A stretch of 64,000 nt of DNA. Origin: Stygiolobus caldivivus. GTDB taxonomy: Archaea > Thermoproteota > Thermoprotei_A > Sulfolobales > Sulfolobaceae. A program made the position numbers and the translations under genes. The notes beneath the pieces are model-generated. The model searched no databases and was not told the origin of the DNA. It saw only the letters and a list, made by a program, of their open reading frames with translations. The number at the start of each line of letters is the position of its first letter. Position 1 is the first letter of the stretch. Of the stretch, positions 41,652 through 48,820 are shown piece by piece. The stretch spans positions 1,736,001-1,800,000 of the forward strand of contig NZ_AP024597.1 in NCBI RefSeq assembly GCF_019704315.1, given 5' to 3'.

Positions 41652-41891
41652 ATGAGAATAAAAGTTACTAGGAACTTTCAGATTACTATACCAGCAGAGG
41701 TCAGGGAAAAACTTAACATAAGGGAAGGCGAATACGTTGATATGACCGTTGATGAGAAAGAGGGGGTAATAATCGTTAGGCCTTATCGTAGAAAGTGGAC
41801 TACTGTGACGCTAGGTAGGAGGATAAGCCAAGAGGAAATTGATAAGACTATAGAGGAGGTCGTAAAGGATTTCACGAAGAATTATAGTTGA
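41652..41891 (+). CDS. vapB: VapB-type (AbrB/SpoVT fold) antitoxin
   Basis: This 79-residue protein has the swapped-hairpin AbrB domain at the N-terminus (VTRNFQITIPAEVREKLNIR, GEYVDM, GVIIVRPYR) and a charged helical C-terminal tail that would wrap the toxin. It binds its own promoter and neutralises the adjacent PIN-domain RNase in known VapBC pairs. It overlaps the toxin frame. The pair sits beside an integrase remnant and between two repeat A copies. Confidence 0.92.
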   Translation: MRIKVTRNFQITIPAEVREKLNIREGEYVDMTVDEKEGVIIVRPYRRKWTTVTLGRRISQEEIDKTIEEVVKDFTKNYS

Positions 41892-42267
41892 TACAAACGT
41901 CTTAGTGTATTCGACTTTCGAGGACGCCGAAAGACACGAAGAGGCCATCAAGATTTTAACTGAAAACGAGGTGATAATCCCACAAATAGTAGTTTATGAG
42001 TACATATGGGTTTTGGCTAAATTAACGAATAACGTTGACTTAGTTAATCAAAAGCTGGAGGAGCTTAAGGATTTTGAGGTAGTTAAGGAAGAATTAGAAG
42101 ACATAATAAAGGGAGTCGAGATGTTAAAAAAGGACAATAGGCAGTTAAGGATGCTAAACGACTATATAATCCTTGCAATAGCTAAAAGGCTTAATGTTGG
42201 ACTTGCGACTTATGACACTGAACTAGCGAAAGCTGGATTTAGAAACGGTATAAATATTTACTCCTAA
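41869..42267 (+). CDS. vapC: VapC-type PIN-domain toxin, likely ATT start
   Basis: PIN RNase acidic residues are Asp in IIVDTNVLVYS, Glu in YEYIWVLAK, Asp in MLNDYIILAIA and Asp in ATYDTELA. The first ordinary start is the GTG at 41905, but that would delete the first catalytic Asp. The frame is open only back to 41866 and contains no ATG, GTG or TTG. ATT at 41869 gives M-SRRIIVDTN, a normal VapC N-terminus, with GAGGAGGT 8 nt upstream. It overlaps vapB by 23 bp. A frameshift from vapB into vapC is the alternative. Confidence 0.8.
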   Translation: MSRRIIVDTNVLVYSTFEDAERHEEAIKILTENEVIIPQIVVYEYIWVLAKLTNNVDLVNQKLEELKDFEVVKEELEDIIKGVEMLKKDNRQLRMLNDYIILAIAKRLNVGLATYDTELAKAGFRNGINIYS

Positions 42268-42740: not shown

Positions 42741-43976
42741 TTACTGCGTCTTCCGAACGGTATATTCTTCTTTAATTTTATCTAGTAAATATCGTGCTAT
42801 TATGGTCTTATAATTTTTATCTAATTTTTCTACTTTATCATCACTACCTATTATGAATACCTCATTGTATTCAGACGAAAAAGCTATGTCTTTCCTCCGC
42901 GCATTGTTAGCTATTATTAGGTCAAACTTATGTCTTTCTTTCTTCTGCTTAGCCTTCATTATGAGCTCATCATCACTGTTAGCCGTCTCTGCAGCGAACC
43001 CTACTAGGAACACGTTATATTTCCTTATCACTGACGAGATCTTCGGGGTCTTTTCCAGTTTTATTTCAGGTACTTCAGTATGGCTGTCAATTTTACTCTC
43101 CGCAGTCCTTATAGGCCTAAAATCCGCCGGCGCTCCTGCTAGTACTACTATATCGTAACCGGTCTTTACTAGCTTTTCTACTTCATTAGCCATTTCAGCT
43201 GTAGTAGTCACCTCTACGGTCTTAACATACGGTCTATGATGGGTTGACAGCGGACCGTGGACTAGTACTACATCGGCACCCCTAAAGTGGGCTTCGTTAG
43301 CAATGTCTACACCCATAGTACCGCTACTAGGGTTGGAAATAAACCTTACTGGGTCTATGAACTCTCTCGTAGGACCTGCTGTAACCACGACCTTGAGACC
43401 GCTTAAGTCTCTTCCCCTTAATAGATAAGCCACTATGTATTGTGTAAGGTATTCTACATCTGGGTAATGGGCTAAGTCCTTTACGATCATCGGTTCCACG
43501 ACCTCTACCCCTATAGCCCTTAGCTTCTCTACATTTTCCCTTATTTGAGGAGAGCTATACATAGGGAGGTGCATAGCTGGCACTACAATCACTTTTTTAG
43601 CCATACCTATGAAGTTCAGTGCTGTTAAGGGTACAGATGTATCAGCGATCCCGTTGGCTATTTTTGAGATTGTGTTCGCCGTAGCTGGTGCTACTATTAG
43701 CGCGTCATAGTCTTCTGCCAGACTAACGTGCTCTATTTCACCCCCTATTTCAGTAACTACTTCCTCTCCAGTAGCCCAATGGAACATGGTGGGGGAGATT
43801 AGCTTAGTGGCGTCTGGACTCATTATCACTTTAACCTCTGCTCCCCGCCTCATTAGGCTTCTGGCTAAGTCTAAAGACTTGTAGATCGAGACACTCCCGG
43901 TTACACCAAGTAGGAGCTTCTTACCTTTTAATTCATCGGACATTTCCCCGATAATCCTTTTTGATGGGTGTACCAT
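42741..43976 (-). CDS. coaBC: Bifunctional phosphopantothenoylcysteine decarboxylase/phosphopantothenate-cysteine ligase
   Basis: This protein carries two consecutive steps of coenzyme A synthesis. The N-terminal flavoprotein CoaC domain shows GVTGSVSIYKSLDLA, the active-site His in TMFHWATGEEV and APATANTISKIANGIAD. The C-terminal CoaB ligase domain starts VVTAGPTREFIDPVRFISN, followed by GFAAET and NNARRKDIAF. The N-terminus MVHPSKRIIG matches archaeal homologues and supports the 43976 start. At 411 residues it is normal. Confidence 0.95.
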   Translation of the reverse strand: MVHPSKRIIGEMSDELKGKKLLLGVTGSVSIYKSLDLARSLMRRGAEVKVIMSPDATKLISPTMFHWATGEEVVTEIGGEIEHVSLAEDYDALIVAPATANTISKIANGIADTSVPLTALNFIGMAKKVIVVPAMHLPMYSSPQIRENVEKLRAIGVEVVEPMIVKDLAHYPDVEYLTQYIVAYLLRGRDLSGLKVVVTAGPTREFIDPVRFISNPSSGTMGVDIANEAHFRGADVVLVHGPLSTHHRPYVKTVEVTTTAEMANEVEKLVKTGYDIVVLAGAPADFRPIRTAESKIDSHTEVPEIKLEKTPKISSVIRKYNVFLVGFAAETANSDDELIMKAKQKKERHKFDLIIANNARRKDIAFSSEYNEVFIIGSDDKVEKLDKNYKTIIARYLLDKIKEEYTVRKTQ

Positions 43977-44021: not shown

Positions 44022-44525
44022 ATGGAGTTTGCCGAGACGAAGAAATACGGGGCATTTGTCGTAAGGTTAGCCAGGATGACTGATATTGACCAAATTGTGA
44101 AGATCAACAGGCTGGCGTTACCGGAAAATTACCCCTATTATTTTTTTGTGGAGCACCTTAAGGAGTATGGTGCAGCTTTTTATGTCGCAGATATTAACGG
44201 GGAAGTAGTAGGGTATATAATGCCTAGGATAGAGTGGGGGTTTAGTAATATTAAACAAGTGCCCAGCTTGGTGAAGAAAGGGCATGTGGTCTCAATTGCC
44301 GTATTAGAAAATTTCAGGAAAATGGGTATTGGTACTGCACTTCTAGAAAACTCTATGAAAGCTATGAAAGGAGTGTATGAAGCAGAAGAAGTATACCTTG
44401 AAGTGAGAGTATCTAATTCCCCTGCTATATCTCTTTATAAAAAACTGGGGTTCTCCGAGGTCAAAGTGTTAAGACACTATTATGCTGATGGTGAAGATGC
44501 GTATCTAATGGCTCGTCCTCTCTAG
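44022..44525 (+). CDS. N-terminal (alpha) acetyltransferase, Ard1/RimI type
   Basis: This is a 167-residue GNAT enzyme. ENYPYYFFVEHLKEYGAAFY and EWGFSNIK are hallmarks of the Sulfolobus Ard1 protein, which acetylates N-termini of many proteins. The acetyl-CoA loop is VLENFRKMGIGTALL (R/QxxGxG/A), and VRVSNSPAISLYKKLGF completes the fold. It is divergent from coaBC and overlaps the convergent phosphoesterase by 21 bp. Confidence 0.94.
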   Translation: MEFAETKKYGAFVVRLARMTDIDQIVKINRLALPENYPYYFFVEHLKEYGAAFYVADINGEVVGYIMPRIEWGFSNIKQVPSLVKKGHVVSIAVLENFRKMGIGTALLENSMKAMKGVYEAEEVYLEVRVSNSPAISLYKKLGFSEVKVLRHYYADGEDAYLMARPL

Positions 44526-44975
44526 TTCTACCCTACTATCATGGGTATTGAAAATGACGTAGTAACCTAACTCCATACTACCAACTGAAATAACTCTTGT
44601 CCTCCCAATACTGTATTCTTTTTGGACTCTGCTATGTCCATGGATAACTATTTCTGGTGATTCTGCTAAGATTTTAGCCTTTACAAACCGAGATCCAGTA
44701 GGGGAGTCGGGTGGAAAATGTGTTATCACTATTTTTGACGAAAAGTCAATAGAAAATACATTAAGAAAAGAACTAGCTATTAATTTGTTCATCTTCCTTA
44801 GGTACTTTTGAGTTGTTACTGTATCCATTTCTCCGAGTATTCCGTAATAGTTAGAAATGTATTGAGGGCATTCAATGTCTCCTAACCCTACGACGAAGTC
44901 CACGTTAAGCGAGTTAAGGAACTCTATCACACCCTCTCTGCATGGCGTTGAAGTAATTAAGACCATTTTTGTCAT
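44505..44975 (-). CDS. Calcineurin-like metallophosphoesterase
   Basis: This protein has about 156 residues from ATG 44975 (44966 also possible). Metal-binding motifs are VVGLGDIE (GD), GILGEMDT (in the GNHD position but lacking the Asn-His), THFPP and IHGHSRV (GHxH-like). It belongs to the short YfcE/MJ0936-type phosphodiesterases. The altered GNHD site weakens the activity call. It is the last gene of the CitG operon, overlapping it by about 60 bp. Confidence 0.78.
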   Translation of the reverse strand: MTKMVLITSTPCREGVIEFLNSLNVDFVVGLGDIECPQYISNYYGILGEMDTVTTQKYLRKMNKLIASSFLNVFSIDFSSKIVITHFPPDSPTGSRFVKAKILAESPEIVIHGHSRVQKEYSIGRTRVISVGSMELGYYVIFNTHDSRVELERTSH

Positions 44976-45813
44976 ACCATTCACCCAGTTTATAAAGTGC
45001 AATACCGACAGCTACTATATCAGCTGTTGACCCCGGGTTATATCCGTTTTTTAAAAGAAAGCGGTCCAATTCATTGACGAGTTTAGGCTCTCCTAACGCT
45101 TCACAAGACATTTTGGAAACCGTTATAGCTGCCCTACCCCCATGTTTTCTCCAGATCAGACCGTCTGGGATTTGACATAGGACTGATAAAAAACCTTCCA
45201 CCACTCCTCTTTCTATCCCTAACTGCTTAATTTTATTGAGGACTAACCTAGAATATTTATAGTCTTCCATCATGTTCTTTATGGAACTGTCTGTAGCGGA
45301 ATGTAGTAAGACTTCATATAAGGAAAACTTCCCCATTGCTTTATAGTCAAAATCGTTATTTATCTCCCCTAGATAGCTTGGGGTAAGTGTCTGCAACGAT
45401 TTTGAAAAATACATGGAGTCGACCTGATCCAGACCCCTTATAGTTTCTGAGGCTTTCCTGAGTGCATCGTCTAGAGACCGGGAAATAGAGGAATAGGCTA
45501 AGGGTACCATTTGAATAAATGTGCCTAGAATAGCAAAATTTATACCTAATTCTTGGCTCTTCACCACAGCCTTATAGAGGGAATCAAATAGAGGCCTCTC
45601 TCTCCTAAGTCCCCTCTTACAAAGTTCTTTATAGTAGTCCTTTGCTGTTAACGCTGAAAGTACCAAGTCCCTGAAGGTAACAGCAGGGATATCCCTCCAC
45701 CTAGAGGCGTTTCCAGGCTTATTATGTAATGACTCTTCCACAGTGGAATAAGAAAGGATAAAAGATATAGAGTTACAAAACTCTTCTAATATAACCTGGG
45801 ACATCCCTATCAC
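44914..45813 (-). CDS. CitG/MdcB-like triphosphoribosyl-dephospho-CoA synthase family protein
   Basis: This is a 299-residue helical protein. Family landmarks are NKPGNASRWRD near the N-terminus, FAILGTFIQMVPLA, LHSATDSSIKN, DGLIWRKHGGRAA and the C-terminal NPGSTADIVAVGIALY. Bacterial CitG/MdcB moves the triphosphoribosyl group of ATP onto dephospho-CoA to build the prosthetic group of citrate or malonate decarboxylase carrier proteins; no such enzyme is seen here. Archaeal members may act on a different acceptor. It overlaps the nucleotidyltransferase gene upstream by 41 bp (start 45804 also possible). Confidence 0.85.
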   Translation of the reverse strand: MIGMSQVILEEFCNSISFILSYSTVEESLHNKPGNASRWRDIPAVTFRDLVLSALTAKDYYKELCKRGLRRERPLFDSLYKAVVKSQELGINFAILGTFIQMVPLAYSSISRSLDDALRKASETIRGLDQVDSMYFSKSLQTLTPSYLGEINNDFDYKAMGKFSLYEVLLHSATDSSIKNMMEDYKYSRLVLNKIKQLGIERGVVEGFLSVLCQIPDGLIWRKHGGRAAITVSKMSCEALGEPKLVNELDRFLLKNGYNPGSTADIVAVGIALYKLGEWYDKNGLNYFNAMQRGCDRVP

Positions 45814-46696
45814 CCACTACTATAATAGGTCTCTCACATTCAACTAACATACCTTTAGCTTCAATCTTCCTTGAACTAAAGAGTAGTGCCGAATATATTC
45901 CTTCATAAGATACAAGTATTTTGGGCCTTAATTTAGTTTCGCCTGAGAGTATGTTAACATTATACAAGGGGACCTCAGAGGGGTAAAACAAGGCCTTACA
46001 GTCACCGCTCTCTAATTCTGCTTTTATAGTTATCTCTCCCCTCCTCTTACATACGTCTTTGCAAGGCCTTTGAGGTCTCGGATCTACAAAGAGAATAGAA
46101 AACTTAACTCCTTTTATTAAACCTCTCATCCTCTTATCGTAAAGTTGCCTAGAATGGTCTATACTTAGCCCGTAGTTGCGCGAGGTCTCTATGACCCATT
46201 CCTTGTCTTCTTCAAAGCCGTTAAAGTTGCTCATTACATCTAGGGCGTTTTTACAGCCGTATACTACCACATCAAGGTCTGATTTGCTGTGGTTAATCCC
46301 AACTAAGAGGCTCCCGGTTACCCCCACCTCAGTAACTCCTAGGGCAGTATAGACATCTAAAAAAATAGCTTCTTGCATAGACTTAGGAGATCGGCGGATT
46401 AGTTCCGTGACTTTCTCTTCGGGTTTTAAATGCTTAAACACTCTGGAGAGCTTTAATATAGGAAACGTCACGCCGTTACAAGGTTCCATAGAAAATTCTT
46501 GGTTAAGTCTAACCATGTTCTTTACACCGTAGTATTTTAGCACCCTTTCGTAACCCCTCCATAGCCCTTTCCCCGTGTAGGTATATTTTAACATCGCGTA
46601 GACGTAACCGTAAGGGTTAACGTTTGAGTACACTAGGTATATATCCCAGTCCTTATCCACTAAAACGTCCTTATCAAGGAAATAACCTCTTCCCAT
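45773..46696 (-). CDS. Nucleotidyltransferase (Pol-beta-like) of the CitG operon
   Basis: In this 307-residue protein the central GVTGSLLVGINHSKSDLDVV near residue 130 is the nucleotidyltransferase signature (GS then DxD). An N-terminal region of about 120 residues of unknown fold precedes it. Residues about 205-220 contain Cys and Arg (RPCKDVCKRRG). In bacteria CitX, an unrelated nucleotidyltransferase, attaches the CitG product to its carrier protein. Pairing a different nucleotidyltransferase with a CitG homologue here suggests an analogous step, which is inference. Confidence 0.78.
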   Translation of the reverse strand: MGRGYFLDKDVLVDKDWDIYLVYSNVNPYGYVYAMLKYTYTGKGLWRGYERVLKYYGVKNMVRLNQEFSMEPCNGVTFPILKLSRVFKHLKPEEKVTELIRRSPKSMQEAIFLDVYTALGVTEVGVTGSLLVGINHSKSDLDVVVYGCKNALDVMSNFNGFEEDKEWVIETSRNYGLSIDHSRQLYDKRMRGLIKGVKFSILFVDPRPQRPCKDVCKRRGEITIKAELESGDCKALFYPSEVPLYNVNILSGETKLRPKILVSYEGIYSALLFSSRKIEAKGMLVECERPIIVVGDRDVPGYIRRVL

Positions 46697-47562
46697 CCTT
46701 TCAACCTCACATAATCTATTGGTGTACCCGCACTTTCGAGAAAACTAAGGTAATCCCTGAACACACCTCCGAATAAGGCGTTGGCAACAAATGCGGAGCC
46801 AACTGAAGATTCCTTAAATTTGAAATTATGTTTAATCCCAAAGGGTATCTCCCACTTTTTACTCCCAGACACTATAATCGGAATTTTATATTGCGCAGAA
46901 TACCACTCAGCTATTATCCTTAAGAGCTGAAGCCCTCTCTCCCAGTTACCATTTGTATATATAGTATTTTTGGTTATTTTAGAGTATTTAGATAGCAAGT
47001 AAGCCACCTCACCGTCCAGAAAACCGGCCGAACTAATACCCGGTATTATGCTCCCCCCTAGCCCGTCTACTACTTTCCCCTCAACGACTACTAAAAGGGA
47101 TGAAAAAGAGGAACCCACTTCGATTAAGACGAAACTATCGTACATCGTTCTGTAGAAAAAAGCTGAAGCCACCTTATCAGCAGTACCCATGTCAATAAGG
47201 TTGATTTTCTTACTTTTGTCGACGCTTATGAGTTCTATTACCCCGGGCAAGGTAAAGGCGTTGTCCAGCGTTCTGGCCGAAACTAGGAAATTCCGCAGAG
47301 GACCTTCTACAGCAGGGTCTTTTAAGGTCATGAGAAATATATCGCGGTCTGTGATTTCAGAGGACCTTTTGAAGGGTAACCCGTGTCCTGAGGGTAAAGC
47401 CACTCCAATAGGTCTGAGATCCGATATGTATTTGACAAGTATGCTAGAGGCCTTATCGACTAAATCCGTAGGAATAGAGAGAAGTTTTAGTGTCCTCCCG
47501 GTTTCGTCGACGAACGCTACCTCATACGTTCCGCTCCCAGGGTCTACTCCCGAAAAAATCAT
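46660..47562 (-). CDS. DUF1464 family protein (ASKHA/acetate-kinase-like fold)
   Basis: In this 300-residue protein FSGVDPGSGTYEVAFVDETG at the N-terminus is the phosphate-1 loop of the ASKHA superfamily. NLIDMGTADKVASAFF and LIEVGSSFSSLLVV (phosphate-2) follow, then GGSIIPGISSAGF. DUF1464 proteins are annotated as predicted butyrate-kinase-like but have no proven substrate. The gene overlaps the nucleotidyltransferase by 37 bp and the upstream RHH gene by 4 bp. Confidence 0.82.
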   Translation of the reverse strand: MIFSGVDPGSGTYEVAFVDETGRTLKLLSIPTDLVDKASSILVKYISDLRPIGVALPSGHGLPFKRSSEITDRDIFLMTLKDPAVEGPLRNFLVSARTLDNAFTLPGVIELISVDKSKKINLIDMGTADKVASAFFYRTMYDSFVLIEVGSSFSSLLVVVEGKVVDGLGGSIIPGISSAGFLDGEVAYLLSKYSKITKNTIYTNGNWERGLQLLRIIAEWYSAQYKIPIIVSGSKKWEIPFGIKHNFKFKESSVGSAFVANALFGGVFRDYLSFLESAGTPIDYVRLKGWEEVISLIRTF

Positions 47563-48095
47563 TGTGAGACCCTTACGACCGCTCCGTTTCTCTCGACCTT
47601 TAGATTTAGTGTGTAGCGTTTCCCTAAACTCCTCAGCAAGGAGCTAACTACACTCTCGAAGTATACGGCGTCTTTTTCATTTTTAAAAAAATACGCTGTG
47701 GCGTTTCCACTATCAGATGGTATTGCTAACCATTTCCCGTCTAGGAACTCTGAAAATAAATTCAGAACGTTAACCATAGTATCTAAAACAGTATCTTGCG
47801 TTTGACTCCTTGACCTTATATATGCATCTAAGTTAACGGCTAGAGTTTCGGGTGGGATATCTAAATTAATATGTAACGCATTTACACTTTTTAAAAGCCT
47901 ATAGAATTCAAACTCGGTTAAAAATAGAGATAGGTTTGTCCCAGCGGACATTAACTTAGTATAAACTAGTATGGCCTCATTAGTAGCGTCGTATATTGTT
48001 TTCTCGCTGTTTTTACAGTAGGTCGTGATCTCTTTGTATGCATCATCAGACATGAAACAAGATTTCCTTCCCATATGTGTACGTTTCCTTCCCAT
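47559..48095 (-). CDS. RHH-like protein heading the CitG operon
   Basis: This 178-residue protein has residues about 9-45 (RKSCFMSDDAYKEITTYCKN, then IYDATNEAILVY) that fit a ribbon-helix-helix DNA-binding domain. The remaining 130 residues are mixed alpha/beta with no recognised motif. The start region is a tandem duplication: ACACATGGGAAGGAAACGT then ACACATATGGGAAGGAAAT, giving MGRKRTH-MGRK. Either ATG (48095 or 48074) may be used. It is likely a regulator of its own operon. Confidence 0.6.
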   Translation of the reverse strand: MGRKRTHMGRKSCFMSDDAYKEITTYCKNSEKTIYDATNEAILVYTKLMSAGTNLSLFLTEFEFYRLLKSVNALHINLDIPPETLAVNLDAYIRSRSQTQDTVLDTMVNVLNLFSEFLDGKWLAIPSDSGNATAYFFKNEKDAVYFESVVSSLLRSLGKRYTLNLKVERNGAVVRVSQ

Positions 48096-48151: not shown

Positions 48152-48820
48152 TTAGGTAGATATTAAAAACTCTATAAGGTCCTCAAAAAATCTTTGTTCC
48201 TCTATTTTAAACCCCATACGGTCGAGAAAATTCTTTAGGATCTCACCTATACCTTGTGTAAGATTCCCGGTCGACCCTTGGATCGTAATAGTCACATAGA
48301 ACTTGTCTTGATTTGCGTTCTGATCCTTGTTTACGGTTATAATTGGAGAGATATCCGATAATAGTGGAGTCTTATCAAGTAAGTTCTGGATATCGGACTC
48401 AGTTATTATATCCTTTTGCTGAATTAGCCCTTTCACGCTATCAGCATACTGTAACGTAACGTTCTTATACCACAAGAGGATCTCATCGATTATATTCTTA
48501 TCGAGTTTAGTAAAAACCGATAACGGAACCCGTAGAAATCCTCGCCTATTTAGTTTAATCAAATAGGAGAGTAATAAATAACTGGATAAGTACTCAAGGA
48601 TATCTGCATTACGCGTGACTTTTAAAGAGTGAGCAACTTGCATAATTATATCGCTTAACACAGCAGTACGAGGGTTTTCATCATCACTTTTACCGTTAAG
48701 CGAAGTATGTTTAACGTTCAGTAAAGAGTTTACAATATAATTTAGCTCGTCTAGAGCATCACTGTACACCGGTGTTAGTTTAGTGTCACGTTTCTTAGGC
48801 TTACCTCCTTTCTTTGGCAC
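48152..48820 (-). CDS. Hypothetical protein with basic N-terminus
   Basis: This 222-residue protein starts with a strongly basic leader (MPKKGGKPKKRDTK), then is mainly helical (ALDELNYIVNSLLNV, DIIMQVAHSLKVTRNADILE), with a beta segment near residue 175 (KFYVTITIQGSTGNL) and a helical end. There is no membrane segment and no known motif. It is 56 bp upstream of the RHH gene on the same strand, so it may belong to that operon. I do not recognise the family. Confidence 0.6.
   Translation of the reverse strand: MPKKGGKPKKRDTKLTPVYSDALDELNYIVNSLLNVKHTSLNGKSDDENPRTAVLSDIIMQVAHSLKVTRNADILEYLSSYLLLSYLIKLNRRGFLRVPLSVFTKLDKNIIDEILLWYKNVTLQYADSVKGLIQQKDIITESDIQNLLDKTPLLSDISPIITVNKDQNANQDKFYVTITIQGSTGNLTQGIGEILKNFLDRMGFKIEEQRFFEDLIEFLIST

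Follow-up and report, generated by a model that had tools for sequence, protein, structure and literature searches.

A CitG homologue and an orphan nucleotidyltransferase in a conserved archaeal operon as candidates for late steps of tetrahydromethanopterin-type cofactor biosynthesis

Within a 64,000-nucleotide stretch of the Stygiolobus caldivivus chromosome (contig NZ_AP024597.1, positions 1,736,001 to 1,800,000; hereafter the window), five overlapping minus-strand genes encode a small ribbon-helix-helix (RHH)-like protein, a DUF1464 protein, a Pol-beta nucleotidyltransferase (NTase), a CitG homologue and a degenerate phosphoesterase (Table 1). The order of the last four is kept in every genome sampled from the family, homologues of the DUF1464, NTase and CitG genes lie within clusters for tetrahydromethanopterin (H4MPT) biosynthesis in relatives, and the presence of CitG and DUF1464 tracks that of the H4MPT gene mptG; we consider it very likely that the operon works in the biosynthesis of an H4MPT-type pterin. 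H4MPT is a folate-like one-carbon cofactor that is essential for methanogenesis and for much of methylotrophy, and sulfopterin has the aminophenyl-ribitol of methanopterin in common. In S. solfataricus the one-carbon carrier is a modified folate, sulfopterin (PMC3432047, PMC3697235). Taken as a whole, the operon is likely to carry out late tail-assembly steps of such a carrier, with the chemistry provided by CitG and the NTase.

Successive genes of the unit overlap by 4, 37, 41 and ~62 bp as measured from open reading frame (ORF) coordinates, in agreement with a sequence-only reading of the window that preceded this work, and its claim of a single operon is upheld by the order DUF1464-NTase-CitG-phosphoesterase, which recurs with overlaps at nearly every junction in all 11 genomes sampled from the same family, the window's own included. 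Because the gene order is conserved in all 11, a chance arrangement is excluded. The association with coaBC, which the same reading had drawn, did not survive: a rimI-type gene on the plus strand separates coaBC from the operon, and coaBC is inverted in two relatives (L093, L101) and missing nearby in a third (L099). It is therefore very unlikely that coaBC belongs to the transcript, and we rejected it as a member of the operon.

We searched 200 Thermoproteota genomes for DUF1464, CitG and MptG, the beta-RFAP synthase that is the committed enzyme of H4MPT synthesis, and scored 80 archaeal CitG loci from named genomes with purpose-built profiles, taking the dihydropteroate synthase-like family TIGR00284 as MptH. 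Physical linkage to mptA, mptD, mptE, mptG, mptH, dmrX and DUF447 was found repeatedly. In a member of the same order (L102), a single cluster of 18 kb holds TIGR00284, MptD (DHNA), MptA, MptG, DmrX, DUF1464, DUF447, MptE, CitG and a second MptG, while in L105 the NTase adjoins DUF447 and DUF1464 in the company of MptD, DmrX, MptH, MptG, MptE and MptA. A further locus reads MptE-DUF447-MptG-DUF1464-DmrX-MptH-MptA-CitG (L165; L164 also has MptD), two Hadesarchaea loci read CitG-DUF447-DmrX-MptH-DUF1464-MptG (L156, L176), and in Bathyarchaeia the run MptH-MptG-DUF447-NTase adjoins CitG (L158, L171-L174, L190); similar linkage occurs in others. Altogether, the NTase is present in 28 of the 80 loci, usually ~1-2 kb from CitG.

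The same association is evident from presence and absence. Among the 200 Thermoproteota, 78 have both MptG and CitG, 6 only MptG, 19 only CitG and 97 neither (p 1.4e-29), and each of the 57 genomes in which DUF1464 was found also has MptG (p 1.5e-29); as these p values ignore shared ancestry, we read their size (~1e-29) as evidence of strong association only. Presence of CitG thus tracks mptG strongly, with exceptions, and DUF1464, the NTase and CitG do co-occur in other genomes, on which the sequence-only reading had made its idea depend. One genome of the same order (G143) departs from the pattern, having CitG and an NTase homologue with neither MptG nor DUF1464. The window's genome (2.96 Mb, one contig) encodes MptG, DUF447 and an MptH-like enzyme elsewhere on the chromosome. 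Its MptG (L128, 6509-7381), like that of the rest of the family, aligns with the model as two segments, and part of its N-terminal third falls outside the match; family members carry this gene apart from other mpt genes, beside an RsmB/F-type methyltransferase gene and with a radical SAM gene nearby (L128).

In Halobacteriota, CitG occurs as a single gene in 115 of 118 genomes; MptG, too, is missing from the remaining three, and only a single genome carries CitG but not MptG (p 1.5e-5). DUF447 directly follows CitG, often overlapping it, in 28 of the 30 loci fetched, and in two loci a second, low-scoring MptG paralogue lies ~2-3 kb from this pair (L229, 8824; L230, 2840). The NTase occurs as one copy in 87 of the 118 genomes, and in 7 of 22 loci that hold it MptA is no more than ~1.1 kb away, the orphan family adjoining mptA in L234-L237, L239, L241 and L242. 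It is absent from the three genomes without CitG and MptG and from all 21 with a low-scoring, haloarchaea-type MptG, whose haloarchaeal identity we deduce from the MptG type and the mostly high G+C content of the loci read. The CitG-DUF447 pair and an MptG homologue are kept, and the NTase is absent, in high-G+C loci (L223-L226, L266, L267, L274) and in Natrinema (L222).

CitG also extends to bacteria. Phyllobacterium, Azoarcus and Azospirillum carry dephospho-H4MPT clusters on plasmids, and in these a gene annotated as 'triphosphoribosyl-dephospho-CoA synthase' has fae on one side and mch-RimK ligase, or a hypothetical gene, on the other. The order in Methylosinus is mch-orf5-orf7-fae (PMC3615186), with orf5 being the RimK-like MyfB of methylofuran synthesis, and the bacterial CitG occupies the orf7 position; in M. 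extorquens, growth on methanol is reported to require every gene of the cluster (PMC8141765). The methylotroph islands (mch-orf5-orf7-fae-orf17; PMC3615186) have CitG, DUF447, RFAP synthase, mptH-like and dmrX-like genes in common with the archaeal clusters, but neither the NTase nor DUF1464 was found in the bacterial dephospho-H4MPT clusters scanned, a difference that fits a cofactor without phosphate and hydroxyglutarate (PMC8141765). The distribution as a whole fits a CitG present wherever an H4MPT-like pterin is made, dephospho-H4MPT included, and an NTase found for the most part in organisms expected to make the full diester tail; it does not bear out the earlier suggestion of a system unique to these archaea. 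That the bacterial clusters mix genes of both pathways would also suit a role of CitG and its partners in methanofuran or methylofuran synthesis. The 4HFCP synthase PF04476, however, was not found in 13 genomes of the window's family, where CitG is present, and the Haloferax volcanii control likewise has CitG without PF04476, so this explanation was rejected and appears exceedingly improbable.

The CitG homologue scores far above the curated cut-off of the CitG/MdcB family (PF01874, EC 2.4.2.52; Table 1), and its group retains KPG, PD..RK.G and NPG.TAD; the motifs KPG, PD..(R/K)(K/R).G-like and PG..AD are common to Escherichia coli CitG, archaeal CitGs and those of the dephospho-H4MPT clusters. 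What separates the window group from classical CitG/MdcB is the lack of the HK of NTHKG and the presence of mpt neighbours in place of citrate-lyase or malonate-decarboxylase genes. The HK pair is absent from every archaeal and dephospho-H4MPT-cluster CitG examined, in a comparison in which the citrate-lyase CitGs are represented by E. coli only; the corresponding position reads mostly N[TV]xLG in archaeal and dephospho-H4MPT CitGs, FxLLG or similar in Sulfolobaceae and NFAILG in the window. A tree with E. coli CitG as its root (support values not examined) joins the window clade to sequences from the same order, including the CitG of the L102 mpt cluster, and places the bacterial dephospho-H4MPT CitGs among archaeal ones. 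A profile built from archaeal mpt-linked CitGs detects the solved structure 3h9p (E 7e-41), a putative triphosphoribosyl-dephospho-CoA synthase named by family only, whereas the CitG of the window is one of the divergent Sulfolobaceae proteins.

The sequence-only reading had favoured a cofactor derived from coenzyme A (CoA), in which CitG would make triphosphoribosyl-dephospho-CoA for the NTase to attach to a carrier protein. Pfam membership of CitG and the proximity of coaBC speak for it. Against it stand the position of coaBC outside the unit and its lack of conservation there, the missing HK pair, the tracking of mptG by CitG, and the neighbours themselves: citrate-lyase (citDEF) and malonate-decarboxylase (mdc) genes, which the earlier reading had not seen either, are absent from the window neighbourhood and from annotated relatives' loci (a genome-wide search was not made), and the relatives carry mpt genes instead. 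We rejected the CoA-cofactor explanation on this genome context and regard it as very improbable. Nevertheless, the earlier reading was right in proposing a cofactor pathway, and CitG-type triphosphoribosyl transfer combined with a nucleotidyltransferase is a useful analogy for its chemistry.

That analogy suggests a chemistry for the H4MPT tail. H4MPT carries an alpha-ribofuranosyl-5-phosphate on its ribitol, esterified to 2-hydroxyglutarate. In the classical reactions, CitG takes the 5-triphosphoribosyl group from ATP, attaches it through an alpha linkage to a hydroxyl of ribose and sets adenine free; CitX, or the nucleotidyltransferase MdcG, next links the phosphoribosyl to the hydroxyl of a serine, and pyrophosphate is released. 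From the operon, its conservation and its pathway association, which are observed, we infer the reactions, which would apply the CitG/CitX logic to a pterin. CitG would move the 5-triphosphoribosyl of ATP, with loss of adenine and in alpha linkage, to the terminal ribitol hydroxyl of the pterin-aniline-ribitol intermediate, and its product would be the alpha-ribosyl unit of an H4MPT-type cofactor, activated as a triphosphate. The NTase would then handle this triphosphate like a nucleoside triphosphate, passing the phosphoribosyl to an acceptor hydroxyl, which in methanogens would be that of 2-hydroxyglutarate, while pyrophosphate leaves. By analogy, CitG is the probable enzyme of the alpha-ribosyl step, and assignment of the phosphodiester step to the NTase is tentative, our confidence in it falling slightly short of even. 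We are evenly divided over the more general proposal that every H4MPT-type cofactor, whether of archaea or of methylotrophic bacteria, receives its alpha-ribosyl unit from a distinct CitG subfamily that uses ATP and not phosphoribosyl pyrophosphate (PRPP) as donor, that the archaeal NTase spends the triphosphate to form the phosphodiester tail, and that Sulfolobales use a divergent pair, encoded in one operon with DUF1464, for a variant of the cofactor.

The NTase carries GS...SDLD at residues 128-142, in agreement with the Pol-beta motif GS-x(n)-D[LIV]D, and G128, S129, D140 and D142 are invariant in alignments of 16 and 19 sequences. Structure prediction, which the sequence-only reading had recommended, returned a confident model (predicted local distance difference test, pLDDT, 86.5) with an N-terminal beta domain, a Pol-beta catalytic domain and a C-terminal domain resembling an oligonucleotide/oligosaccharide-binding (OB) fold. 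A Foldseek search of this model against the PDB gave no whole-length match, the weak matches being to catalytic domains of poly(A) polymerase, CCA-adding enzyme and terminal uridylyltransferase (TUTase) and to OB-fold proteins. It is likened to CitX/MdcG for its proposed chemistry, in which a triphosphoribosyl compound reacts with a hydroxyl and pyrophosphate is lost; the window NTase differs from them in a three-domain architecture of its own, for which the PDB offers no match.

The same genes could serve the same pathway in other roles, with CitG using PRPP or another donor, or building another part of the tail, and the NTase activating an intermediate with a nucleotide in the manner of CofC, without forming a diester. 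All of the context evidence fits this explanation equally well, and the NTase model, as an unmatched combination with an OB-like domain, has an acceptor that cannot be read from its fold. White's work on methanopterin is, moreover, said to have proposed PRPP, and not ATP, as donor of the second ribose. CitG, on the other hand, keeps the three motifs described above, and ATP is the family's known donor; we judge these other roles to be rather improbable.

Several observations, in addition to White's proposal, weigh against assigning the operon to tail assembly of an H4MPT-type carrier by CitG and the NTase. No mpt gene is linked to the operon within the family of the window. Six of the 84 MptG-bearing Thermoproteota lack CitG, 19 of the 97 CitG-bearing ones have no strong MptG match, and the NTase is missing from seven further Halobacteriota that have both CitG and MptG and do not fall in the haloarchaea-type group. 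The NTase family is broad, archaeal and rich in paralogues, which weakens one-to-one transfer of function, and Sulfolobaceae CitG, being divergent (NTxLG to FxLLG or similar), may act on a different acceptor than the other H4MPT-type CitGs do. Finally, haloarchaea retain CitG and DUF447, and they are said to use folate and to be without methanopterin-specific enzymes (PMC8305020); genomes of the haloarchaeal type may make an unrecognised pterin.

DUF1464 is predicted to be an ASKHA-like small-molecule kinase or transferase of the H4MPT-type pathway, tied to the mptG branch, on the strength of the ASKHA-like motifs GVDPGSGTYE and NLIDMGTADK; that it acts specifically as a kinase seems doubtful. 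Of 46 genomes outside the window's family, 21 have its gene no more than 1.5 kb from one for MptG and one more has the two within ~4 kb of each other, and Sulfolobus acidocaldarius is its only carrier among 14 control genomes. The AlphaFold model (pLDDT 45) was too poor for interpretation of the fold, no PDB match to a solved relative was obtained, and a literature search for DUF1464 found no paper. The protein is shorter in Sulfolobaceae (~300 residues) than elsewhere (~380), and because DUF1464 is shortened and CitG is divergent there, we suggest that Sulfolobaceae may build a variant cofactor.

One published account calls the biosynthesis of H4MPT incompletely resolved (PMC4683180), and another, in 2011, put the number of unknown proteins at seven (PMC3087415). 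Our literature search turned up nothing that connects CitG or triphosphoribosyl with methanopterin, although priority is not thereby established. The CitG homologue is a strong candidate for the missing ribose-attaching enzyme of the H4MPT pathway, and an enzyme annotated as a citrate-lyase accessory, together with an orphan NTase, becomes a candidate for the ribosylation and phosphodiester steps, respectively. Our findings suggest that most archaea and many methylotrophs have their CitG wrongly annotated as 'triphosphoribosyl-dephospho-CoA synthase', and the little-known Sulfolobus one-carbon carrier gains a candidate gene set.

All 11 same-family genomes encode the phosphoesterase, one of them in a shorter ORF; in the window, the ORF at 44505-45002 encodes 165 residues from a TTG, and the ATG at 44975 agrees with relatives. 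The altered metal site reported earlier was confirmed, most metal ligands being lost across the family: of the YfcE-type two-metal set DxH, GD, GNH, H and GHxH, the first DxH is gone, GNH has become GE[MF] or GDF and GHxH has become GHS, while GD, one H and GH survive. Judged from these residues, the protein is probably non-catalytic or altered in activity. The first gene had been called RHH; it does look RHH-like by eye, but a Pfam scan gives no supporting match. Its family, in which clusters c12 and c17 were merged by profile search (hhalign 95.5%), adjoins DUF1464 in 9 of the 11 genomes, co-oriented in four and divergent in five, and is a facultative neighbour that likely acts as a local regulator.

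Table 1. The operon and adjacent genes, with positions in the window.
Feature	Position	Strand	Remarks
RHH-like small protein	47559-48095	minus	178 aa; 'CFM' motif near N-terminus; RHH assigned by eye
DUF1464 (PF07318)	46660-47562	minus	300 aa; Pfam 339.8 bits
Pol-beta nucleotidyltransferase (NTase)	45773-46696	minus	307 aa; NTP_transf_2 weak, E 0.0018
CitG homologue (PF01874)	44914-45813	minus	299 aa; Pfam 120.4 bits, cut-off 27
YfcE-like degenerate metallophosphoesterase	44505-44975	minus	Pfam metallophosphoesterase weak, E 1.4e-6
rimI-type N-acetyltransferase	44022-44525	plus	convergent with operon; outside unit
coaBC	42741-43976	minus	neighbour, outside unit

Directly upstream of the RHH-like gene, a conserved uncharacterised protein is encoded at 48152-48820 (cluster c16); it accompanies the RHH-like gene in 4 of the 11 same-family genomes. 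Elsewhere in the window, the region 41652-42267 holds what appears by eye to be a VapB-VapC type toxin-antitoxin pair, in which the start of the VapC-like gene may precede the listed GTG.

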